NCBI GenBank assembly: GCA_020048285.1
Contig: JAIFMU010000084.1
Span: forward strand, 1 to 40,010
Source: a bacterium
GTDB lineage: Bacteria; Fibrobacterota; Chitinivibrionia; Chitinivibrionales; Chitinivibrionaceae
Reading direction: 5' to 3'
Length of the DNA: 40,010 nt
Within the stretch, counting starts at the first letter, position 1. Every line of letters starts with the position of its first letter. The notes under the pieces were generated by a model. The model was not told the origin of the DNA, ran no database searches, and saw only the letters and a list, made by a program, of their open reading frames with translations. A program made the translations under genes and the position numbers. Below, piece by piece: positions 1,199 to 30,931 of the stretch.

Positions 1199-1443
1199 TA
1201 TTTTTTCTTACTTTTCGCTTGCGCTTCTGCCAATAATTTACTATTCGCTGCTTGCAATTCTGAATTTTCTCTTTTTAACGTGTTAATTCTGTCAACTAAT
1301 GCACCCCTCTCATCAATTGAAGTGCTATATTTCTTTTGCAACATCGCAAATTTCTCTTTCAACTCGACTAGTGGATCAATCCTCTCCGCTGTACTCAATT
1401 GCACCCACTCGTTCCTCTCGTTCAACACTCTTTCCTTCGTCAT
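1198..1443 (-). CDS. Small coiled-coil protein between the terminase subunits
   Basis: This is an 81-residue, strongly charged protein with no membrane segment. From about residue 25 to the end it has heptad-like spacing of Leu, Met and Val among Lys, Glu and Arg (for example the stretch ALVDRINTLKRENSELQAAN), so a parallel coiled coil is likely. The C-terminus is Lys-rich. I chose the ATG at 1443, since the longer frame starts from a GTG. A purine-rich GGGTGGGGA lies just upstream of the ATG. It overlaps the end of the small terminase gene by about 68 bp and the start of the large terminase by one base. Its position suggests a role in packaging or terminase assembly. I do not recognise the family. 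Confidence 0.8.
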   Translation of the reverse strand: MTKERVLNERNEWVQLSTAERIDPLVELKEKFAMLQKKYSTSIDERGALVDRINTLKRENSELQAANSKLLAEAQAKSKKK

Positions 1444-2002
1444 TGTCCCCACCCTGGTTATTGTCTCTATTAATTCCCGTCGATATTATAAATTGCACCG
1501 GTGCCGCTGCATCACCGCTATGAATAGTACGATTTCCGTACTTATACGGATTTGCCACCCCAGCCAGATACTTCAATTTATCAAACCTCAGCTTCTCCTC
1601 TGCCAGTTCATCTCTGTTTAGCCCATTAACTTCCACGTCTTGTACAATTCTGTGATAGTACCCTTCAGCTTGCACCGCTAAAGCTTCATCCAGCCGTTGC
1701 TGAACCTCAGGAAAGATTCTCTTCCACCGCATGATCGTAGAAAGCTTGGGAAACTCAGGCCGTTTACATATTTCATTCAACGTCAGATTCATGTCAACCA
1801 TCACATCGCACATTCTGTCCACTATTGACTGATGGTAACTCCACCTGGTGGTGTCACCACCCATTAGCTCTTGTAAGCCTCTAGAATGCCCTATTTTCTT
1901 TCCTGAGAGCATGTCATAGGCAATGATCTCACCACCCGGCATTGTCTCGTAGTATATCCGTTTCTCTAAATCTAGCTCTGCTTGCGATTTTGTTAAATTC
2001 AT
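1376..2002 (-). CDS. terS: Terminase small subunit
   Basis: This is the 208-residue DNA-recognition subunit of the packaging machine. Residues about 70-115 contain a helix-turn-helix-like segment with the pattern LNEICKRPEFPKLSTIMRW followed by a helical region (FPEVQQRLDEALAVQAE). This is the pattern of phage Sf6 gp1-type small terminases. It is followed by a helical oligomerisation region and an acidic, disordered tail. It lies directly upstream of the large subunit, as is usual. There is no Shine-Dalgarno sequence before the ATG; instead a sigma-70-like promoter ends five bases upstream, so the mRNA may be leaderless. The assignment is good from motif plus position. Confidence 0.85.
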   Translation of the reverse strand: MNLTKSQAELDLEKRIYYETMPGGEIIAYDMLSGKKIGHSRGLQELMGGDTTRWSYHQSIVDRMCDVMVDMNLTLNEICKRPEFPKLSTIMRWKRIFPEVQQRLDEALAVQAEGYYHRIVQDVEVNGLNRDELAEEKLRFDKLKYLAGVANPYKYGNRTIHSGDAAAPVQFIISTGINRDNNQGGDNDEGKSVEREERVGAIEYSGED

Positions 2003-2341: not shown

Positions 2342-2581
2342 GCCATGCCAGTACCACGCCATAGACTGCCCGGCCCAGATCGCTTGATTTTTATTTGCCA
2401 GGCTGAATGGCCCGATATCTCCCACCGGATGGCCTCTACGATCGATTAGAGGGCCACCACGCTGCTCGGCTCTGGTGATCGCTGCTGGTTGCTCGGCTCG
2501 GATGTTGACTCCACCGCATGCAGTTGAAAATATTTTATTTTCAGCCGCACAAACGCACATGAAAATCGGGGATTTGAACAA

Positions 2582-2680
2582 TTTAGAAAATACTCTTATA
2601 TATATATACTCTTCTCTAAATATATATTATTTAATCTCTCTTTTTAGAATCAAGTATAAGAATATAACTAAATTAATGTG
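2582..2680. other. Very AT-rich segment beside the phased repeats
   Basis: About 100 bp with under 20% GC by eye, including TATATATATATAC and AAATATATATTATTTAAT. It holds no gene. Its position between one isolated CACATGA copy and the main repeat cluster resembles the unwinding element of a replication origin. Confidence 0.6.
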
Positions 2681-2717
2681 CGTTTCAAGGTCCGTGAGAC
2701 TGAAAATCGGTCCCCGG

Positions 2718-2917
2718 TTTCATGTGCGAATTCATGTGCGTTTCATGTGATATTTCATGTGCGCTTCATGTGCGCCGAAATGTGCCAACCCAACGTGTTA
2801 TAAGATTTTTATTTAGACGCAGTGTTCTTTTTATTTAGACGCACTGGTCTGACGCGTTTGCAGCGCACATAGCACGCACATGAGATATCACATGAAACGC
2901 ACATGAGATATCACATG
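2718..2917. repeat. Helically phased inverted array of TCATGTG/CACATGA; candidate replication origin
   Basis: The left arm has TCATGTG at 2720, 2732, 2743, 2755 and 2766, with a degenerate sixth at 2778. The right arm has the reverse complement: degenerate CACATAG at 2864, then CACATGA at 2875, 2887, 2898 and 2910. Spacings are 12, 11, 12, 11 on the left and 11, 12, 11, 12 on the right, about one helical turn. The arms are inverted with respect to each other over about 48 bp with roughly 85% identity. The right arm contains a perfect 23-bp tandem duplication (2872-2894 and 2895-2917). Isolated partial copies occur at 2553-2564 and 2676-2687. This resembles an iteron-type origin or a large operator. 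Confidence 0.75.
2806..2846 (+). repeat. Tandem pair TTTTTATTTAGACGCASTG between the inverted arms
   Basis: Two 19-bp copies at 2806-2824 and 2828-2846 differ at a single base (G or C). They occupy the centre of the inverted TCATGTG/CACATGA array. No gene covers them. Confidence 0.85.
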
Positions 2918-2951
2918 AATTCTGTTAACGTGCGTGCAAGCATCACGAATT

Positions 2952-2991
2952 TATTTTTTAAAAAATAAAAAAACCCGGCACAAGGCCGGGT
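2952..2991 (-). terminator. Intrinsic terminator at the left end of the exported-protein cluster
   Basis: A 7-bp perfect stem ACCCGGC/GCCGGGT (2973-2991) with a 5-nt loop is followed, in the leftward direction, by a T-rich tract (2972-2952). It would stop transcription from the 3023-3520 gene before it enters the candidate origin. Confidence 0.85.
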
Positions 2992-3022
2992 CTATGGGTG
3001 GTGTACTGAATTTTTTTAAAAA

Positions 3023-3520
3023 TCAATCAATCCACGTCTTAAAATCATCCGAGATGCTATGCCATCTCCATTCACCATCGGCCATCATGTATAACTCCTG
3101 TTGAGTATCCTCAAATTTCGACTCAACACCGATCGAGAGGCCAAATTCACCACCATCATACTTAGTGAAAGCGCAATAACTCCGGTGGGGACTACCTATG
3201 GAAATCACCTTTCCACCTTTCAAGGCCTGAATGTAGGCCGGGTACTGGTTATCAGGGAACTTTCCATCCTTACCCCAGTATGTAGCATCGAACTCCTCAC
3301 TGACTTGGTATCCGGGTGGTAGTATTCGGCCTTTAAAACCCAACTCATAGTTGAAATGCTTGAAATAAACGTCTTCATTCACGTGTTGAGTTCCGAAATA
3401 ATACCCACCCCATCCGGTGGCAATTAACAGAAAACTCAAGGTGATCATTCTGATTGCGTATTTTTTTCTGTATTTCGCATTAAGCTCATCACAATACTTG
3501 TCAATTTTTTCAATACTCAT
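3023..3520 (-). CDS. Membrane-anchored protein of unknown function
   Basis: This 165-residue protein has a Lys/Arg-rich cytoplasmic N-terminus (about 1-24). A single hydrophobic segment follows at about 25-43 (MITLSFLLIATGWGGYYFG), then a C-terminal domain of about 120 residues with many aromatic residues. The arrangement predicts a type II membrane protein with the C-terminal domain in the periplasm. A clear AGGAGTG ribosome site precedes the ATG. It is the last gene of a leftward cluster of four exported proteins and is closed by a strong terminator. I do not recognise the family. Such clusters in phages often alter the host surface or block superinfection, but nothing in the sequence proves that here. 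Confidence 0.8.
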   Translation of the reverse strand: MSIEKIDKYCDELNAKYRKKYAIRMITLSFLLIATGWGGYYFGTQHVNEDVYFKHFNYELGFKGRILPPGYQVSEEFDATYWGKDGKFPDNQYPAYIQALKGGKVISIGSPHRSYCAFTKYDGGEFGLSIGVESKFEDTQQELYMMADGEWRWHSISDDFKTWID

Positions 3521-3546
3521 TTTTCACTCCTGTTTTTAAAAAAATT

Positions 3547-3575
3547 AAACTACATTCTGCAATCAATATTGTCAA
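3547..3575 (-). promoter_or_regulatory. Weak candidate promoter for the 3023-3520 gene
   Basis: On the minus strand a perfect TTGACA (3575-3570) lies 17 bp from TAGTTT (3552-3547). The -10 element is poor, so this is tentative. It lies in the 57-bp gap between two genes of the cluster. Confidence 0.35.
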
Positions 3576-3577
3576 CA

Positions 3578-4012
3578 TCACCACACTGCGTAATGGCCTA
3601 AGTTATCGTTGATATACGATAAACATTCGAACATTTCGTGGCTGGCCGGACTTAAATCAATCTCCTCTGGAACTGTACTGTTCATTAAAACACCCATGAT
3701 CACCGATCGATTTATTTTTAAAACCGATAAGGCCTCATTCGTGAGTACATACTTAATTGTTTTGGCCGCAGTACTGGACATAATATAAGACGTACTTGAT
3801 CGATCGATCGAACTCCTTTCAATGCATGCTATGGCCTCATCAACGCCCGCGGCCAGACGCTTATACTCGGGGGTGGTAATGGCCAGATCATACAGGCCAT
3901 TGAATTCGAAATTGTTTGATCGATGGCCCTTATATACGTCGTGAGAGGCCCAAAAATAAACGCTTATATTCGAAATGATCAAGACGATTAAAAATAAAAT
4001 CTTAGTCCTCAT
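3578..4012 (-). CDS. Exported or inner-membrane-anchored protein of unknown function
   Basis: This 144-residue protein begins MRTKILFLIVLIISNISVYFW, a positively charged start followed by a hydrophobic core typical of a signal peptide or anchor. The remainder is soluble and rich in Ser and Glu, with two Cys. An AAGGAG ribosome site lies 8 nt before the ATG. The gene starts only about 20 bp after a terminator hairpin at 4034-4056, so it is either expressed by read-through or from an unseen promoter. I do not recognise the family. Confidence 0.75.
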   Translation of the reverse strand: MRTKILFLIVLIISNISVYFWASHDVYKGHRSNNFEFNGLYDLAITTPEYKRLAAGVDEAIACIERSSIDRSSTSYIMSSTAAKTIKYVLTNEALSVLKINRSVIMGVLMNSTVPEEIDLSPASHEMFECLSYINDNLGHYAVW

Positions 4013-4024
4013 TTTTAAAACTCC

Positions 4025-4056
4025 TTAAAAAAAAGGGCCTCATTTCGAGAGGCCCT
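4025..4056 (-). terminator. Intrinsic terminator after the 4088-4405 gene
   Basis: A perfect 8-bp stem AGGGCCTC/GAGGCCCT (4034-4056) with a 7-nt loop is followed in the leftward direction by eight T residues. Both stem arms contain GGCC, the tetranucleotide enriched in this island. Confidence 0.85.
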
Positions 4057-4087
4057 AGGGGTGGTAGAACTCAATTTTTAAAAACTA

Positions 4088-4405
4088 CTATTTAACCAAC
4101 CCTTTCTTAAGTAGACGGTTTTTTACACGATCATTTGCACGCTTTTCAATCTCCGCACGAACCTGGGTGGCCTCTTGAGCGGTGGCATCTCGTTCAACGA
4201 TCGTCTTGCCCATAATCTTAGCGCCTAAAATCACCTGCTTGCCGCTGCAGTTAGTCGCTGGCTTAAGGGCCGCGACTAGGTCTTTGGCCTCTTTGTCAAA
4301 AGGGTAAGATTTGCCATCACCGATCTTAACGCATACCATGGCAGATGCTACGTTTACAGTCAGGGCCACTACACCAGCTACAACTACATTTTTCCAATTT
4401 TTCAT
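4088..4405 (-). CDS. Secreted protein with a canonical signal peptide
   Basis: This 105-residue protein has a textbook Sec signal peptide: MKNWK, then a hydrophobic core VVVAGVVALTVNV and a signal peptidase I site ASA at about residue 22. The mature protein is about 83 residues. It has two Cys that could form a disulfide (MVCVKIGDG and ATNCSG), then a Lys/Arg/Glu-rich helical C-terminus. A GGAGAT ribosome site precedes the ATG. Its own terminator follows. It is probably periplasmic or released. The function is unknown. Confidence 0.8.
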   Translation of the reverse strand: MKNWKNVVVAGVVALTVNVASAMVCVKIGDGKSYPFDKEAKDLVAALKPATNCSGKQVILGAKIMGKTIVERDATAQEATQVRAEIEKRANDRVKNRLLKKGLVK

Positions 4406-4430
4406 AACTAATCTCCAATTTTATTTTAAT

Positions 4431-4449
4431 GGGTGGCGACATGCCGCCC
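4431..4449 (-). terminator. Hairpin between two exported-protein genes; weak terminator candidate
   Basis: GGGTGGC and GCCGCCC pair with one wobble around a 5-nt loop. In the leftward direction the hairpin is followed by ATTAAAATAAAATT, which is not a convincing T tract. One stem arm is a GGGTGG motif. Confidence 0.35.
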
Positions 4450-4507
4450 AATCTGATTTTTAAAAGATAACACGCATAATCAATTCAATCAATGCGTCGT
4501 GTAAATT

Positions 4508-4729
4508 TTACTCGGCTTCTACAAATTCACAATCCTCATCATCCTCTTCTTCACACGATACATAACTGCCACCGTCAAGGGGTACATCATCACCGTAGCA
4601 TGGTACGGAGTACCCACCGCATCCGAATTTTTCACGACAATCTGCATCCGTTGTACAACTAGCGGATGGGGTGGTATCTCCGGCATTGCAATTCAAGCTT
4701 ACTAAGATCAACAATATTAAGATTTTCAT
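4508..4729 (-). CDS. Small secreted cysteine-rich acidic protein
   Basis: This is a 73-residue protein. The longer frame starts at 4750, but an AGGAG site is placed correctly for the ATG at 4729. That start gives a clean signal peptide MKILILLILVSLNCNA. The mature part is small and rich in Cys (about seven in total) with a very acidic C-terminus (EEEDDEDCEFVEAE). Disulfide-stabilised folding outside the cytoplasm is likely. It is the first gene of the leftward exported cluster. I do not recognise the family. Confidence 0.75.
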   Translation of the reverse strand: MKILILLILVSLNCNAGDTTPSASCTTDADCREKFGCGGYSVPCYGDDVPLDGGSYVSCEEEDDEDCEFVEAE

Positions 4730-4996
4730 TTTTAAACTCCTGTTTTTCATTCAATCTACATAAAAACATGATGCATCATCGATGCCAAAACGCAATCAAC
4801 GAAATTCAATCACTTAAGGGGGTGGTAAAACGGCCCCACCGTAGTATTTTGACACCGATCAAGGGCCAAAACGCCACTAATCTAATGCAACATGTTGATT
4901 TAATTGATTTTTTTCGCATCTTTATAAGAAAAAAAACTTGATTTTTCGGGCCGTCTGAATAATAGTCAGGTGTCAGAAAAATCGACAATTTTTCTA

Positions 4997-5086
4997 GACA
5001 ATGCTATTGATATAGGCATAGTCAGAGTCAGAGTCAGAGTCAGAGTCAGAGTCATAGCCATAGTCATAGCCATAGCCATAGACAAT
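4997..5086. repeat. Hexanucleotide repeat array B (15 hexamers, GTCAGA x5 core)
   Basis: The in-register hexamers are GACAAT, GCTATT, GATATA, GGCATA, five GTCAGA, GTCATA, GCCATA, GTCATA, GCCATA, GCCATA and GACAAT. The array starts and ends with the same hexamer. GCTATT and GCCATA also occur in array A at 2164-2229, so the two arrays are related. They lie on either side of the exported-protein island. Confidence 0.9.
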
Positions 5087-5110
5087 ACCCAGAAATTTTT
5101 ATAGGATGTC

Positions 5111-5137
5111 TATGACAGTGGAGGGGCCAACTTATTT
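5111..5137 (+). repeat. TATGAYAGTGGAG element, copy 2
   Basis: TATGACAGTGGAG is followed by GGGCCAACTTATTT, 24 bp after hexamer array B. It shares its core with the copies at 2045 and 5885. Confidence 0.55.
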
Positions 5138-5241
5138 TTGCAGTGGGTCAAACCGTAGAAAAATTGTTAAAGAGCTTTTGGAAATTTTCATTCTAAAACC
5201 TGTCCCATCAAAGCCCTATGGGTGGAGTTTTTTCACCACGC

Positions 5242-5517
5242 CTAAAATTCTTCTTCATCATCGGCCAATGTTCTTAGACTATTAATATATTGCTCTGCGC
5301 TGGAAGAATTAAGGAAACAACTATTAAGGTGGTGAGTTTTACTGCCATCTAAATTAAGTACATTCACACAATAAATATATTCCTTTGCGTTGATACCTTC
5401 CAAAATGCTTAATGCGTATAAGTATTCACCTGATTTTCCATACCTCATAACTTTAGTTAGGTTGGTTTTTGCACAATACGCTGCATTAAATAATCTTTTT
5501 ATCTCATATGCTTGCAT
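5242..5517 (-). CDS. Small cytosolic protein of unknown function
   Basis: This 91-residue protein has no signal or membrane segment. It starts MQAYEIKRLFNAAYCAKTNL and ends with the acidic tail DDEEEF. The start at 5517 is chosen because AAGGAT lies 8 nt upstream; the in-frame ATG at 5526 would overlap that site. It is the first leftward gene facing the rightward early operon, a position where small regulators or host-takeover proteins are common, but it has no recognisable DNA-binding motif. Confidence 0.7.
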   Translation of the reverse strand: MQAYEIKRLFNAAYCAKTNLTKVMRYGKSGEYLYALSILEGINAKEYIYCVNVLNLDGSKTHHLNSCFLNSSSAEQYINSLRTLADDEEEF

Positions 5518-5650
5518 TTTTCGCATCCTTTTTTCAATGATTTGCCTGATTACTTACACGGGCATTTACATTTTTGCAAGCAGTTTTTACAGATGAAAAG
5601 CTTACAATTGACACAAAATACTAACATTTAGCTCTAGTGATATTAATGGG

Positions 5651-5979: not shown

Positions 5980-6318
5980 ATGAAACTAAGGGGTGGCGTA
6001 TATGATGGAGCAAAGATGAGAACAGCGTGGCGTAAAGATCTGGTTTTGGCACCCGAGGGGTGGGATTACGTTTACAGAATCGAGAATTCATACCAGACTT
6101 ATCGAAAGACGTACTGCGTGGAGGGTGAACAATACAAGCTCAGAGTGGATAGAATCGTCGAGACACCGAGCTATTATTTTCTCTATGGCCATATTACGGT
6201 AACAGATGCTCAGGGTGCCATGGTTCGGGAAGGTCCTGAAGAAACGAAGAGGAAGAAGCCTTTCGATCTTCCGCAATGGATTATCGATAAACTAGGAGGG
6301 GTGGAATGTACGAAATAA
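5980..6318 (+). CDS. Early protein of unknown function
   Basis: This 112-residue protein starts at the ATG at 5980, behind a strong GGAGGT site; an in-frame extension to 5935 has no ribosome site. It is rich in Tyr and Arg with alternating polar and hydrophobic residues that suggest a beta-rich fold (for example YYFLYGHITVTDAQGAMV). It is the first gene of the rightward early operon and its end overlaps the start of the next gene. I do not recognise the family. Confidence 0.75.
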   Translation: MKLRGGVYDGAKMRTAWRKDLVLAPEGWDYVYRIENSYQTYRKTYCVEGEQYKLRVDRIVETPSYYFLYGHITVTDAQGAMVREGPEETKRKKPFDLPQWIIDKLGGVECTK

Positions 6319-6452: not shown

Positions 6453-6658
6453 ATTGGGAGAACGGAAAAGCTAAGTATGGGGTGGCAATTGGCGTGCCTG
6501 ATTTGGTTGAAGCGATTAGCACAGGCTGCTTCGATGAACTTGCGAAGGCAGAAGAAGAAGCGATTTATTTAATGCAGAGCTGGGAAGAATTTGGTTATAG
6601 GAAACCACAATCAGCATTTATTTTTGAATGTAAACTAGTTACTGTTTACAACGTATAA
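6449..6658 (+). CDS. Small early protein of unknown function
   Basis: This 69-residue protein is translationally coupled through an ATGA overlap with the preceding gene. The middle is a Glu/Ala-rich helix (FDELAKAEEEAIYLMQSWEE) and the C-terminus is hydrophobic and beta-like. No signal peptide. I do not recognise the family. Confidence 0.65.
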   Translation: MNWENGKAKYGVAIGVPDLVEAISTGCFDELAKAEEEAIYLMQSWEEFGYRKPQSAFIFECKLVTVYNV

Positions 6659-6673: not shown

Positions 6674-6886
6674 ATGGAAAACAAAAGACGGATTACGAAG
6701 ATTGAAAGGTTCTTATTCAATCGGATTGTGCAACTAAAGAACGCCAGGGTGGATTTTAAAAACAGAGAATCCACCCGGAACGTATTGCATCTAAACATGA
6801 CGCTATATATTAGGCTCACTAGCAAGCAAATGCCAACGGTGGAATTAATTGAGAAACTATTACCCGTATTTAAACAGGAGATATAA
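6674..6886 (+). CDS. Small basic early protein
   Basis: This 70-residue, Lys/Arg-rich protein follows a GGAG site. Its sequence is predominantly helical (ITKIERFLFNRIVQLKNARV) and ends LLPVFKQEI. Small basic early phage proteins often bind host proteins or nucleic acids, but there is no motif to support a specific role. The amidase gene begins three bases after its stop. Confidence 0.65.
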   Translation: MENKRRITKIERFLFNRIVQLKNARVDFKNRESTRNVLHLNMTLYIRLTSKQMPTVELIEKLLPVFKQEI

Positions 6887-6888
6887 GA

Positions 6889-7551
6889 ATGAAACGAATC
6901 GCGATTATCGTAGGACATTCACCCAACGCTAAGGGTGCAGTCAATTTTATGAACGTGTCTGAGTATGATTTCAACAAGGCAGTAGCAGAGAAAATACTGC
7001 TGGATCTAGTAGAGTACGATTGTAATGCTAAAATGTTTTTACGCTTGCACGGAATTAGCAACTTGGGTGCCGAAGTTAAGGTTTTCGACCCCGCTTATTC
7101 AGTAGAACTTCACTTCAATTCCAGCGAATATGCTGTGACGGGTGCCCAGACCGAGGTTCTATGTATGCCCTATGTTAATGGTATTGCAGCGGCACAGAAG
7201 TTGGCAGCCGCATTTGAGAAAGAATATAAGTATGGGCTTCGGAATGGTAAGGACATGGGTGCCAAAATCCTTAATCCAGAATCTAGAGGGTGGGGTAATT
7301 TGCATAGTACAGGCAAGAAAGATGCTCTTTTAATCGAGCCAGTTTTCGGCAATACGGCAACAAGTCAGGCTAAAGATTTCTTCAAAAACCCGGACAGATA
7401 TTCTAAATTTTTGTCTGATTATATCGTGAAGGAATTAGGCCTAGTTGCGAAGGATGTCCCACCCGTGCTTCGGAAAGTGGCAAGCACAGATGAGATTCAC
7501 TTAGCTATTAACAACTTAGTAGCGGCACTAGAGAACTACCGCAACGGCTAG
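6889..7551 (+). CDS. N-acetylmuramoyl-L-alanine amidase (endolysin)
   Basis: This 220-residue protein cleaves the bond between MurNAc and the stem peptide of peptidoglycan. It fits the zinc-dependent Amidase_3 fold. The first zinc ligand is His10 in VGHSPN, the second probably Glu25, and the third His75 in ELHFN. The catalytic Glu150 lies in LLIEPVFGN. There is no signal peptide, so export would need a holin. A C-terminal tail after about residue 190 might bind the wall. The start has AGGAGAT upstream. It sits in the early operon, far from the holin candidate at 18.6-18.9 kb, which is unusual for a lysis gene. Its stop codon overlaps that of the convergent primase gene. Confidence 0.85.
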   Translation: MKRIAIIVGHSPNAKGAVNFMNVSEYDFNKAVAEKILLDLVEYDCNAKMFLRLHGISNLGAEVKVFDPAYSVELHFNSSEYAVTGAQTEVLCMPYVNGIAAAQKLAAAFEKEYKYGLRNGKDMGAKILNPESRGWGNLHSTGKKDALLIEPVFGNTATSQAKDFFKNPDRYSKFLSDYIVKELGLVAKDVPPVLRKVASTDEIHLAINNLVAALENYRNG

Positions 7552-9929
7552 AACGCACTACCTTGGGGGGTGCAGAGCTTGAACCCGTTGATGACTCGGT
7601 GGTTTTTACCTTTAATGGAACGAGTTGATGGCCCCACATCTACATCAAAGGTTTCTCTAATGTATGTCCTCGTCAGTCGTCCAAACTGGCGAGCACCAAC
7701 TGGAAATGTGTTATATGTGTCTTTGCAATGATCAAGATATATTTTGTAAAGTGTATTTGTAATAACATAAGCATCAGTGCTACCTGACTGGATGAATAGG
7801 CCATCGAAGAAATCACCTAGCGAGCTTTCGTTTCGATACTCATTAAGAGCTTGAGTCATACGAGCAGCTTCGGTAAAACCTTTCTGGGTGCGATATCTGT
7901 AATAAGCCTCGATGATGATGTTTAGCACCCCTGGGAGTTCCTCAAGAAGCTTGTATTTGAGCTGTTTGTCCATGTTCTTACCAGAGAAGCGTGCATTGAA
8001 TGGAACGATGATGAATCGGCGCCACATTCCGTAAGTCTGGTCATGATTCTTTGGTAGTTCATTGGCTGCAACGATGATTTTGGCACGGTTTCGGACGGCA
8101 AAGGGTGGTTTATATACGACTTTAACCGTTACCTCTCCACCGGACACGATATTTTTAAAGTGGGATGAATCGACAAAGCTGTTAGTAGGGGTTTCTTCCG
8201 AGAGGTTGAACATCTTTCCCTGTAGACTAGCAGCTTGCTGCGAATCTGAGAACTGGGACAGATTCAGAATCGAGTACCCCTGGCGACCGACTAGAGCTTT
8301 GACAACATCAAGCAGGGTGCTTTTTCCGTTTGCACCGTCGCCGAGCAGGATAAGGGCCTTTTGCTCAAGGCAATCAACGTCAGTTAGGGAGTAGGCTATA
8401 AACTCCATGAGTAGCTGAGAGATGTGGATGTCATTCATGGTTATTTGCTCCATGAATGTATCGAATCTGGGTGCAATAGCTGTTGGATCGTACTCGTAAT
8501 CGGTGACGTAACGGAAAGCATGATCAGGAGAATGAGGAAGGATCTTCGCCACCGGGCCAGTCAGATCCAGCACCCCGTTCTGGAGGTTTATCTGCATAGC
8601 GGTGGAAGTCTCGAAGAAATCATTGGAGCGTCCGTTTGTCCGGTGGATCTTGGCGAGAAACTCCTTGGCAATTGCCTCGGTTGGTTTGGGGTCGAAGTGT
8701 TCTTCAGCGAAGCGTTTTGGGTGGATATCTAGCAAAGTTTCCCAGTGTTTGCCATTGAAGATATAGATTTGAGAGTTTTCGTCGGTTATGTACTGGTAAT
8801 GAAGACCGAAGAACTTACACATATCATCGTAGTTAGGGGTGGTTTTGGTGATTTGTCCGGTTTTTTCGTTGAATTTGACGTTATAGAACCCAGTTGACTG
8901 GGTGCGAATGTAGTCCTCAGAGCGGATAGTTATAGGAGAAACTTCCTTTTGATAATGTGGACAGGTACGGCACCCCTCCCATAAGGTATCGATGTTTTTA
9001 CACGTTCTAGGCCCTGCGTTCTTTATGGCGTAGTTGATCTTGATAGCGGTGTCCCGATGGTTGTAGTTAGGGGATTTTTCGCTCAGAGCGTGGGATAACT
9101 CCACCCCGTCATCTAAGCGGGCGGTTATCGATAGCATGGCATACCACGCCGGCTCACTAATCTGCTCAGGGTGGTTCTTGCAGTGTTTGAGGAAATCGCA
9201 CCCTTCAAGGACTGCTTTCGTATCGGGTGCCGGGAACCGAGTCAGCTGTTGGGTGGAGATTTCTTCAGTGTTGGAAATGATGGGTATCTTCGTTATGGTT
9301 TCGAGACTGTAATCTTTCTGGACAACGATGTTTTTTTGGATTAAAAAAGCATCACGCACGATATTTTTGTTTGGGTAGCCCGTGTCAGGTGTTTTCTTGT
9401 TTGTTGTATATGGTAGACGCATCAAACGCGCTGGGGACCACACGCTGGAGTCCGTTTTTCCATCCAATTTTTCAGATTCCAGTGCGTGGTTTATCAGCTC
9501 ACACACAAGAGCATATTGGGACATGGTTGCTTTAAAGTAATCTTTATCAGTGATAGTTATATCCGACTCGACTAGATACTGTAGACCATTTCCAGAGCAT
9601 ACGATTCCAACTTCCTCAAATTTTAGACCTAGCACCCCTAGAATGATTGGGTGGTACTCGTCGATTCTGGTCAGATCAATGTTGTCGATGTCGAATGGAA
9701 TAGTTGTCTGAGTGAGCATCTTGCACCCTGGGGCCTCATGGCATTCAGCGGTGGTATAGAACAAGTTCCATCGTTCCTCTTGTGGGATTTTTCCCATGAT
9801 AATCTCAAGGTTTGCAAAGAGATCAGGAACCGATTTAGCACGCCATTTCTTGTCGAAGAATGAATGAACTGATTTGTAGGCGTTGATTTTAGCATTGAAG
9901 ATTTGTCTGAGTCCAAGAATCTGAATCAT
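7548..9929 (-). CDS. Primase-helicase: AEP-type primase domain plus D5/SF3 helicase
   Basis: This 793-residue protein would make primers and unwind DNA at the phage fork. The N-terminal third shows archaeo-eukaryotic primase features: an Asp-x-Asp pair in FDIDNID (80-82), a GNGLQYLV segment (113-120) and basic residues in SPARLMRLPY. Cysteines at about 244, 250, 310, 320 and 323 could bind zinc. The superfamily 3 helicase follows: Walker A GDGANGKST (530-538), Walker B-like FNLSEET (574-580), sensor IIVAANELP (618-626) and arginine-finger segment WRRF (636-639). The end resembles the D5/P4 C-terminal winged helix. A ribosome site AAGGAT precedes the ATG. It is the only leftward gene in the 6-16.7 kb replication arm. 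Confidence 0.92.
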   Translation of the reverse strand: MIQILGLRQIFNAKINAYKSVHSFFDKKWRAKSVPDLFANLEIIMGKIPQEERWNLFYTTAECHEAPGCKMLTQTTIPFDIDNIDLTRIDEYHPIILGVLGLKFEEVGIVCSGNGLQYLVESDITITDKDYFKATMSQYALVCELINHALESEKLDGKTDSSVWSPARLMRLPYTTNKKTPDTGYPNKNIVRDAFLIQKNIVVQKDYSLETITKIPIISNTEEISTQQLTRFPAPDTKAVLEGCDFLKHCKNHPEQISEPAWYAMLSITARLDDGVELSHALSEKSPNYNHRDTAIKINYAIKNAGPRTCKNIDTLWEGCRTCPHYQKEVSPITIRSEDYIRTQSTGFYNVKFNEKTGQITKTTPNYDDMCKFFGLHYQYITDENSQIYIFNGKHWETLLDIHPKRFAEEHFDPKPTEAIAKEFLAKIHRTNGRSNDFFETSTAMQINLQNGVLDLTGPVAKILPHSPDHAFRYVTDYEYDPTAIAPRFDTFMEQITMNDIHISQLLMEFIAYSLTDVDCLEQKALILLGDGANGKSTLLDVVKALVGRQGYSILNLSQFSDSQQAASLQGKMFNLSEETPTNSFVDSSHFKNIVSGGEVTVKVVYKPPFAVRNRAKIIVAANELPKNHDQTYGMWRRFIIVPFNARFSGKNMDKQLKYKLLEELPGVLNIIIEAYYRYRTQKGFTEAARMTQALNEYRNESSLGDFFDGLFIQSGSTDAYVITNTLYKIYLDHCKDTYNTFPVGARQFGRLTRTYIRETFDVDVGPSTRSIKGKNHRVINGFKLCTPQGSAF

Positions 9930-11434: not shown

Positions 11435-11842
11435 ATGATTGGAAGTTTGGTAAACGTCACCCATATTGATGGAAATGAACTTGTAGATATTGTGAAGTTG
11501 AAAGAAAAAGTTAGTGAAGACTATAGTGATGGCATCATGCCATTACAATTGGCGCAATGGTTTGAGGATCACGTTCGCCCACACAAACATATTTATGTGC
11601 GTCATGACGTTGATTCTATTTCTTTCACGATGATGACAGAACCCGCAAGTGAAGGCGGTAAGGGGTGCCAATTTACCGCCCTTATTGAAACAGCTCTTAT
11701 CATGTTGCAATCTTTAAACAAGAGGTATCCGTGTATGGAAAATTCTATAACAATTACAAAATTACAAGAGGCCCTTTTTTGGCAAGAACAACGAACAAAA
11801 GACAGACTTCAACGCGGTGTTGAAGGACATAACAAGGAGTAA
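11435..11842 (+). CDS. Protein with an Acb2-like C-terminal helical segment
   Basis: This is a 135-residue protein. Residues 1-75 form an unrecognised N-terminal region. Residues about 80-135 run as a helix (FTALIETALIMLQSLNKRYP), a short turn, then ENSITITKLQEALFWQEQRT followed by KDRLQRGVEG. The helix, turn and 'TKLxEAxxW' pattern recalls the Acb2/Tad1-type hairpin family. Acb2 proteins are phage cyclic-nucleotide sponges that block CBASS and Thoeris signalling. The resemblance is from memory of the motif and needs a profile search. It lies between the SNF2 helicase and a small coiled-coil gene, so a replication role is the alternative. AAGGAG precedes the start. Confidence 0.75.
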   Translation: MIGSLVNVTHIDGNELVDIVKLKEKVSEDYSDGIMPLQLAQWFEDHVRPHKHIYVRHDVDSISFTMMTEPASEGGKGCQFTALIETALIMLQSLNKRYPCMENSITITKLQEALFWQEQRTKDRLQRGVEGHNKE

Positions 11843-28834: not shown

Positions 28835-30931
28835 TTAAAATGAATTTCCAGGTGCAAAAATAGACTGACTTTCATTTCTTATTATTTCTTTTCTTCTCTT
28901 ATCAACTTCATCATCAAGCCAGGATTTTCCAGGTGGATATTTTACTTTGTTTATATCGTCAAATTTGAAAATCACTGGTTCCCCTTTGGCATCCTTGAGG
29001 GGTTCTAAGTATGAAGGATTATCATGTGAAGGCTGTAATAACATCATACCATCACGATTAGCTGAAGATACCCACTGATGTGTGGCTTGTGTGAATTTAT
29101 TTGTTTTTGTGCCAACATAATCTTCCATAAAATTTTTAATATTCTCTGTATTTGCTATTGTCGTTGGAACCATTACAGATGCTTTTGGTGAACTTATCGG
29201 TTGAAACGTAGAACTGAACATTCTCCACGCTTCTTTTTGAGCATTTTCATCACTCATTTTATCCAAGCGTAATCGTTTATAGTGTTCGTTAACTGTATCC
29301 AATACTATCATTGCATTACTTTTTGATTTCTGATCATTTCCAACTGCTAAATACATTGAAAACAAATCATCTTCCATAAGTGTGCTATATTTCGACTTAG
29401 GATCACCTATTTTTTCTTTATATAGATCATCTGAAACTGGATTCATGATATTTTGAATTGCATGTTTACGAAGAACTTTATCTTTAATTTCTCCAACAAC
29501 CGCATAATTTTCAGGAAGTCCTAATTCTTTAATTGCTGCAAAAGAATCTTTCCCTGTCATATCTTCTAATTCTGAAAAAAGATCGAGTGTAATATTTTCA
29601 TCTTTTTGTTCAATTGCATTTTTAATTCCTTCACCATATTTTTTGTTCAACGCTGGACTCATATAATTTCTGCTCTGCTTTTCTATCCCCCATTGGTCAT
29701 AGAATCCATCTAATTTTGCTTTATATTGTTGATATACTTTTTGATCTCCTTGAATAACTGCCACTGAAAGATCGGATAATGATTGATCACGTCTTGCCAA
29801 ATAACCGACTGGATCTTTGTTAAACTCCGCCTGTAAATTAGAGTTAAGTGCATTTAATTTTTCAGAAACTGCACCCTTTAATGCCACAGCTTCTAATGGA
29901 TCTTTTACCTTAAAATGTTCAGCTTGGGCATTTGCAATTGACTGCACATCACGTTGCCATAGAGGCAACAATGCAAAAGTATCTTGCATCTGTGCAACTG
30001 CTTTCATTCCAGCAAATCTACGTTTCAACTCTCTTTGTTGCTCCGCTGGGAACAATTCTATTTGTTTTTCAACCGCTTGGATCACTGGATCATTATACTT
30101 CATCTGACCTGAAGTAACTCCAATTTCAGCCTCACGCATATTGTTCAAAGCTGAATTGAAAAACTCATTCTTCATCTGCATTTCACTTTGGACAGCTGCC
30201 ACCCGTAGCTGAGTTTGTTGAAATGGTGTAAGGCGTTTTAAAATCTCATCAGAATTTTTAGGATCTTTCCCATCCAATAATGCCAACGCTGCCTTATTGT
30301 TTTTCATTATAATAATGGATTTTACTGTTTCATACGCTGCATTTGACATTTTCTCTTGCAAAGCTGCGCGAGTCTTATTGTCATAAATTTCTGAATTATT
30401 GATTAATAAATCTTCATCTTTTAAATCACGGTTAGCTTTGATATAATCGCCATCACCACCCAAGTTAGCTATACGTTCATCCGTTTTACCTACATAATAA
30501 TTGCGACGTGCCTCATTTTCAAAGTTATCAGCATGAATTAACTTTTCAGCAATCATAGAATTAGCTGAACTACTGAAATAATTTTTCTTGGCATCACTAT
30601 CTAAATTATCTAAATATTTTTGTTTAGTTGTGCTGAGCATTTGATCATACTCTTGAGCGTAACCTTTGAAATCAGTACCATTATATTTTTGTTTAAGCGC
30701 AATATCTTGTTGGTTAAGCTCTCTTCCATAATCATAAGAGCTTTGAGTTACTGCTTGGATCAAATCTTCTTTGGTACGTTTTTTATATAAATCAACACCA
30801 ATCTGAGCAGCTTCACCACCCAAGCCTGCTAACGCTGAAGCAACAAGTCCAGCGTGTCTTATTTCAACATTCGGTAATTGTGTTCCAACAGCTTCTTTTT
30901 GAGGTCCATTCATTATTGGTACTATTGGCAT
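28835..30931 (-). CDS. Internal virion protein, gp15-like
   Basis: This 698-residue protein starts at the ATG at 30931 behind AAGGG, giving MPIVPIMNGPQKEAVGTQLP. It is long, helical and rich in Lys, Gln and Asp, with no membrane segment. Its position between a gp14-like and a gp16-like gene is that of T7 gp15 and its relatives (about 750 residues), which form the periplasmic tunnel of the ejection machine. The assignment is by position, size and composition. Confidence 0.6.
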   Translation of the reverse strand: MPIVPIMNGPQKEAVGTQLPNVEIRHAGLVASALAGLGGEAAQIGVDLYKKRTKEDLIQAVTQSSYDYGRELNQQDIALKQKYNGTDFKGYAQEYDQMLSTTKQKYLDNLDSDAKKNYFSSSANSMIAEKLIHADNFENEARRNYYVGKTDERIANLGGDGDYIKANRDLKDEDLLINNSEIYDNKTRAALQEKMSNAAYETVKSIIIMKNNKAALALLDGKDPKNSDEILKRLTPFQQTQLRVAAVQSEMQMKNEFFNSALNNMREAEIGVTSGQMKYNDPVIQAVEKQIELFPAEQQRELKRRFAGMKAVAQMQDTFALLPLWQRDVQSIANAQAEHFKVKDPLEAVALKGAVSEKLNALNSNLQAEFNKDPVGYLARRDQSLSDLSVAVIQGDQKVYQQYKAKLDGFYDQWGIEKQSRNYMSPALNKKYGEGIKNAIEQKDENITLDLFSELEDMTGKDSFAAIKELGLPENYAVVGEIKDKVLRKHAIQNIMNPVSDDLYKEKIGDPKSKYSTLMEDDLFSMYLAVGNDQKSKSNAMIVLDTVNEHYKRLRLDKMSDENAQKEAWRMFSSTFQPISSPKASVMVPTTIANTENIKNFMEDYVGTKTNKFTQATHQWVSSANRDGMMLLQPSHDNPSYLEPLKDAKGEPVIFKFDDINKVKYPPGKSWLDDEVDKRRKEIIRNESQSIFAPGNSF

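Follow-up and report, generated by a model that had tools for sequence, protein, structure and literature searches.

The iterons of phage lambda are located within the O gene and share one orientation, and in the SaPI elements the iterons flank an AT-rich stretch and the Rep-ori pairs are specific. In P4, the alpha protein is a primase-helicase whose C-terminal winged helix binds the origin repeats (PMC4234260, citing Yeo et al. 2002), and SaPI Rep and SCCmec Cch2 are helicases that bind iterons via their C-terminal domain, with origins downstream of their own genes (PMC7581432). The primase-SF3-winged-helix proteins of pRN1 and Bordetella phage BIP-1 have been proposed to assemble at stem-loops of unconserved sequence and to start replication bidirectionally, the large stem-loop being conserved in form and not in sequence; no iterons were reported in pRN1, and the stem-loop was placed just 3' of the replication gene (PMC4234260).

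The locus described here resembles these in part. The window, by which we mean the whole 40,010-bp stretch of DNA that was analysed, is the IMG/VR contig IMGVR_UViG_3300002026_000078, and because its 43-bp ends are near-identical (one mismatch), it is a circular assembly and probably a complete phage genome. The tail, connector and capsid proteins are of the podovirus type, and TerL and the capsid protein are 40-54% identical to those of Pelagibacter phages of the HTVC010P group, in contrast to the replication genes (a D5-type primase-helicase, an SNF2 helicase and a family A DNA polymerase), which are unlike those of that group. No close DNA relatives of the window were found among the phage records searched. 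A side observation concerns positions 11435-11842, where the Acb2/Tad1 hairpin domain is matched weakly (E 0.023, short of the cut-off), which could indicate an anti-defence sponge.

We propose, with a probability of about 0.83, that the non-coding gap upstream of TerS and TerL is the bidirectional (theta-type) origin of this podovirus-like phage, where replication would start and where mirrored iterons would be bound by the phage's own D5-type protein (Table 1). That a replication origin lies here was the proposal of a previous sequence-only reading, and it is largely supported by evidence to which that reading had no access: the least stable DNA of the genome, a switch in the strand of the pentamer GGGTG, the position of the locus in 11 of 11 genomes, and a predicted winged helix, all of which, together with the array itself and the asymmetry change in two genomes, were computed directly.

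Table 1. Features of the proposed origin and of the associated genes, in window coordinates.
Feature	Position	Strand	Description or basis
Small terminase subunit TerS (Sf6-type)	1376..2002	-	PF20901, phrog_1482; located downstream of the gap
Outlying heptamer, left of the AT-rich block	2556..2562	-	Exact TCATGTG on the - strand
AT-rich candidate DNA-unwinding element	2577..2676	.	Least stable 100 bp of the genome, nearest-neighbour energy, z = 4.2
Heptamer-like TAATGTGC, right edge of the AT-rich block	2674..2681	+	One mismatch to TCATGTGC
Left iteron arm	2719..2775	+	Five TCATGTG at 2720, 2732, 2743, 2755, 2766
Spacer between the arms	2776..2862	.	22-bp direct repeat TTTTTATTTAGACGCA... at 2806-2827 and 2828-2849
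Left arm sixth site (AAATGTGC)	2778..2785	+	Degenerate, in phase with the arm
Right iteron arm	2863..2919	-	CACATAG 2866 (degenerate), CACATGA 2877, 2889, 2900, 2912
Intrinsic terminator	2971..2993	-	9-pair stem, U-tract; closes the leftward operon (5526-3023) ahead of the array
D5-type primase-helicase, proposed initiator	7548..9929	-	793 aa; D5_N, DUF5906; Pfam and PHROGs
D5-type C-terminal 104 aa, predicted winged-helix DNA-binding domain	7551..7862	-	AlphaFold, Foldseek, profile match

It is in 363 bp of this gap where 10 of the 11 TCATGTG/CACATGA copies of the window fall (binomial p = 3.6e-16, uncorrected for having chosen the motif), the remaining copy being at 29022, and the array region is the strongest two-orientation heptamer cluster among the ~390 segments examined, in a scan that excluded plain tandem arrays. 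The sequence-only reading had described two mirrored arms, and these are indeed present: the left arm is spaced 12, 11, 12, 11 bp and the right arm 11, 12, 11, 12 bp, counted from its degenerate first copy, and they mirror each other across 93 bp as a 62-nt inverted repeat that is 82% complementary. The additional claim that every site lies on the same face of the helix is only roughly true, given that an average of 11.5 bp per site drifts by ~34 degrees per copy on 10.5-bp B-DNA, or ~137 degrees from the first to the fifth copy, and exact phasing was therefore rejected. Besides the arms, the heptamer at 2556 and a AATGTGCG at 2676 form an inverted pair that brackets the AT-rich block.

Of the ~120 TCATGTG triplets seen in public contigs, both virus and genome, only those of the window have the alternating 12/11 spacing; the rest are plain 12,12 or 11,11 tandem repeats, and because of this difference the sites look like maintained protein-binding sites rather than the product of simple tandem duplication. 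The heptamer itself was discarded as evidence of an origin because it recurs too widely in unrelated contigs, with CACATGA arrays in 25 virus and 103 genome stretches, many of them in coding sequence. Some of these arrays deserve a separate mention. In L106 (4239-5303), an O-like/DnaD-like replication gene (family match) contains CACATGA repeats phased at 12 bp, which encode AHEA repeats; in L120 (2845-3732), such repeats encode THEN repeats and are part of a gene of no assigned function, whose likeness to a replisome organiser was judged by inspection alone. Small mirrored CACATGA/TCATGTG arrays are also found beside exonuclease-like (DUF3799) genes in two unrelated virus contigs, L104 (3448-3529), where a Sak4-like gene is next to the DUF3799 gene, and L114 (1634-1726).

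The array adjoins the least stable DNA of the whole genome. A+T reaches 83% over 2582-2680, and the least stable 60 bp, according to nearest-neighbour energies, are at 2617-2676; the earlier suggestion of a block placed like an unwinding element is thus supported by both the 60-bp and the 100-bp minimum. The same reading was also right in placing a terminator beside the array and in seeing no gene there, as the region holds no convincing gene and only mechanical ORFs at 2219-2581 (a low-complexity GATGCC repeat) and 2475-2750. The leftward operon lies on the other side of the gap from TerS, and its transcription would stop at the terminator first, which would keep it off the array. We also noted hexanucleotide microsatellites in the non-coding gaps of the window, (GATGCC)12 at 2270-2341 and (AGTCAG)5 at 5020-5049, with comparable but different tandem repeats (ATGGCACTGG-type, 6167-6246) in the related genome G002. 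Another element, TATGACAGTGGAG(G), has three copies in each of the two genomes (window 2046, 5112, 5886; G002 5785, 9482, 11064), always on the plus strand and intergenic, and is possibly a phage-specific promoter or regulatory site.

The relatives share the site and not the motif. G002 (30,218 bp), whose TerL, TerS and D5 proteins are 86%, 58% and 62% identical to those of the window, has the same gap with its own inverted repeat (44 nt, 91%, 57-nt spacer), a different iteron motif, AAAACCGGTGC, repeated at 11-12 bp, and an AT-rich block at 6520-6619 that is its least stable DNA. In the case of G001 (circular, ~38.6 kb), 13 GGTTGCCAG sites lie in 0.4 kb, three mirrored pairs surround its least stable DNA (142-241), a gapped inverted repeat is found at the site, and a DUF5906 primase-like gene ends ~0.86 kb away. 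The search for D5 homologues added eight genomes, and in 11 of 11 the least stable 100 bp fall between the terminase and the primase gene, an interval that takes up 10-22% of each genome or contig; this set shares an orthologous gap, however, and does not amount to 11 independent events.

Most copies of a given motif are concentrated at the site in several members: 7 of 7 GGTAACAG copies in G010 and 6 of 7 in G021, 7 of 8 AATCGGTA copies in G009 (three of them at 11 bp), and 7 of 8 TGTAACA copies in G048; the least stable block is flanked or overlapped by short mirrored copies in two of these, G010 and G009. The clusters are weaker in G005, G006, G037 and G007, and the site is the top both-orientation cluster of its genome in 6 of the 11, other clusters being stronger in G002, G001, G006, G037 and G007, so the iteron evidence is strong in some members and only suggestive in others. 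A large stem-loop is present in the window and G002, and the relatives other than these and G001 have short inverted repeats or none. No long gapped inverted repeat was found in six genomes of HTVC010P-type or other distant TerL relatives, and the TerS and D5 alignment scans returned no further close relatives. Of the expectation that related phages would carry the phased heptamer array at the same place, therefore, the architecture held, with clustered, often mirrored iterons kept beside the least stable DNA, and the heptamer and its exact spacing did not, each relative having its own motif.

Strand asymmetry also changes at the gap. GGGTG is over-represented in the window (189 seen vs. 118 expected, both strands), and over 30-40 kb plus 1-2002 there are 45 copies on the minus strand and 0 on the plus strand (15:0 minus in 1-2002 alone); from 2996 to ~10 kb, it is mainly on the plus strand, and the best change point falls between 2017 and 2996. 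The plus-strand excess is found inside the leftward genes of 3023-5526 (8:2) and inside the leftward primase gene (12:7), and the minus-strand genes on the two sides of the gap differ with a Fisher p of 2.7e-10, and since genes of the same direction differ across the gap, transcription direction alone is not the cause of the switch. Neither is it the cause of the skew change, because the four-fold-site skew of leftward genes is +0.23 left of the gap (+0.52 near it) and -0.22 to its right. The neutral-site skew goes from -0.45 left of the gap through ~0 inside it to 0.37 at 6-7 kb, and the best change point for this skew is 4.65 kb, not 2.7 kb. The skew test that accompanied the sequence-only reading came out in favour with a qualification, as the GGGTG and four-fold-site changes do occur across the gap, but the raw and neutral-site GC-skew minimum lies at ~4.7-5.5 kb and not exactly at the array. 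Over 10-17 kb, GGGTG is of mixed polarity, so the second change is a diffuse one, and the terminus would likewise be diffuse and not opposite the array.

The asymmetry pattern of the window is the one expected if bidirectional forks left the gap. In G002, the GGGTG count on one side is 0:18 and the strand changes within 6-8 kb; for GGGTGC, the switch falls between ~6.40 and 6.71 kb, across the AT-rich block, and the neutral-site skew changes at 6860, inside the inverted repeat. In most of the more distant relatives, GGGTG is not polar; the D5 gene has a negative skew in 5 of 5 genomes that transcribe D5 toward the block, and its mean skew is near zero in those where it is directed away. The GC skew of G001 was dropped as origin evidence because it tracks gene direction. 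As for the pentamer itself (GGGTGG/GGGTGC in the window and G002), it may signal where the primase starts on the lagging template, or else act as a Chi-like site.

The sequence-only reading had named the D5 primase-helicase as a protein to be tested for binding, and this protein is present, with an SF3 (D5-type) helicase fused to a primase region (D5_N, DUF5906 and DNA primase PHROGs) and a predicted winged helix at its C-terminus. AlphaFold models these last residues as a winged helix with a mean pLDDT of 80, the model being limited to this domain since the full-length model from two sequences had a pLDDT of 31. The Foldseek matches of the model were 1DP7, AsfvPrimPol and 1KA8, all with E-values above 0.001, the profile match to 1DP7 was 2e-4, and the P4 origin-binding domain 1KA8 was among the weaker matches of both profile and model; there are also weak matches to the Pox_D5 and RFX families. 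The domain is therefore predicted to resemble the RFX DNA-binding domain, AsfvPrimPol and the origin-binding domain of phage P4. Among isolates, no D5 protein matched over 80% of the length, and the best-covered matches were 22-30% identical.

We suggest that the mirrored heptamers would be bound cooperatively by this C-terminal winged helix, that the D5-type protein would assemble on both arms, which face inward, possibly forming two rings, and that it may then melt the adjoining AT-rich block or the spacer and prime both forks. Between the window and G002, the C-terminus is 27-36% identical, against 52-76% for the remainder of the protein. Of the D5 parts compared across ten homologues, it also has the lowest conservation, as a DNA-reading domain chasing a changing iteron would be. 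This co-variation is imperfect, since G021 and G010 share GGTAACAG and yet their D5 C-termini are only 29% identical. We consider it an even bet that the origin architecture is fixed across this clade. Groups of iterons, arranged as mirror images in several members, would adjoin the least stable DNA in the region bounded by the terminase and the D5-type primase, and the iteron sequence would have been substituted completely from one close relative to the next, in step with the rapid evolution of the winged helix.

The alternative that survives best keeps the origin and changes its binder, which would be host DnaA, a further phage initiator, or a regulator that limits initiation. The D5 gene is ~5 kb from the array in the window and not adjacent to it, and several small window proteins have no family match, both of which fit such a factor. 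Nevertheless, we regard this as unlikely, as a conserved host protein, DnaA for instance, would be hard to reconcile with the turnover of the motif between relatives, and it is the D5-type protein that has the predicted P4-like winged-helix domain, with D5- or DUF5906-type genes in 11 of 11 genomes.

A packaging site (cos or pac), where TerS would bind the repeats to mark the concatemer cut, is quite improbable and could, in any case, coincide with the origin. The gap does lie upstream of TerS and TerL, comparable to lambda cosB, the array being 720-920 bp from the TerS gene start, and TerS is of the Sf6 type with a middle region that diverges between the window and G002; short CACATGA arrays also occur near terminase small-subunit genes in the unrelated contigs L110 and L103 (the latter by inspection). 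However, packaging is directional and the array is mirror-symmetric, a packaging site does not predict the least stable DNA together with a change point of strand asymmetry, and GGGTG, if Chi-like, would be oriented for forks leaving the site and not for a nuclease entering from ends located there. More improbable still is a phased operator array for a transcription factor of the terminase or late operon: cooperative regulators typically bind arrays of several helically phased sites, and there are sigma-70-like matches in the gap, but at about the number expected by chance, the TerS start codon is separated from the closest heptamer by >500 bp and from the arms by >700 bp, the terminator isolates the other side, and the asymmetry switch and least stable DNA would be left unexplained. 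A large hairpin RNA or structured non-coding transcript is hardly credible, since, despite single-strand folding beyond that of shuffles (z = -7.7 in the window and -10.6 in the relative, with DNA energy parameters), the Rfam search gave only sub-threshold matches to long-hairpin microRNA models, the 11-12 bp direct repeats and outlying single copies point to protein sites, and most relatives have no long hairpin.

Few replication origins have been located in uncultivated phages. Here, a number of computational lines converge on a single stretch of 400 bp and carry over to ten relatives, which provides the clade with an origin that can be tested and with a named candidate for its initiator. 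Because iterons turn over between relatives whose primases are 62% identical, matched pairs would be available in which to study how a D5-type (SF3) initiator, of the family to which the P4, SaPI and poxvirus D5 proteins belong, changes its specificity, and, if the proposal is true, the clade is a natural series of matched initiator-origin pairs.

In comparison with the known systems, the D5-type protein resembles P4 alpha as a primase-helicase with a predicted C-terminal winged helix, but the window arms are mirrored, and no second repeat cluster like the P4 crr was found in the window, where 10 of 11 heptamers are in one place. With the SaPI and SCCmec elements, it shares a D5_N-type helicase, whose C-terminal domain recognises short iterons in those elements, but their origins are directly downstream of the helicase gene, whereas the window array (2.56-2.92 kb) is ~5 kb from the D5 gene (7.55-9.93 kb) and beside the terminase. 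The primase, SF3 helicase and winged helix recall pRN1 and BIP-1, as does the large stem-loop form in the window and G002, except that the stem is here made of iterons and the loop is 57-92 nt. Like the lambda origin, the locus has iterons adjoining an AT-rich element, although they are mirrored and in a non-coding gap, and none of the window proteins that were scanned is O-like. Our best reading, by analogy, is that the locus works like the P4 and SaPI origins, while differing from the known systems in its single repeat cluster, its gene placement, and its mirrored, phased arms.
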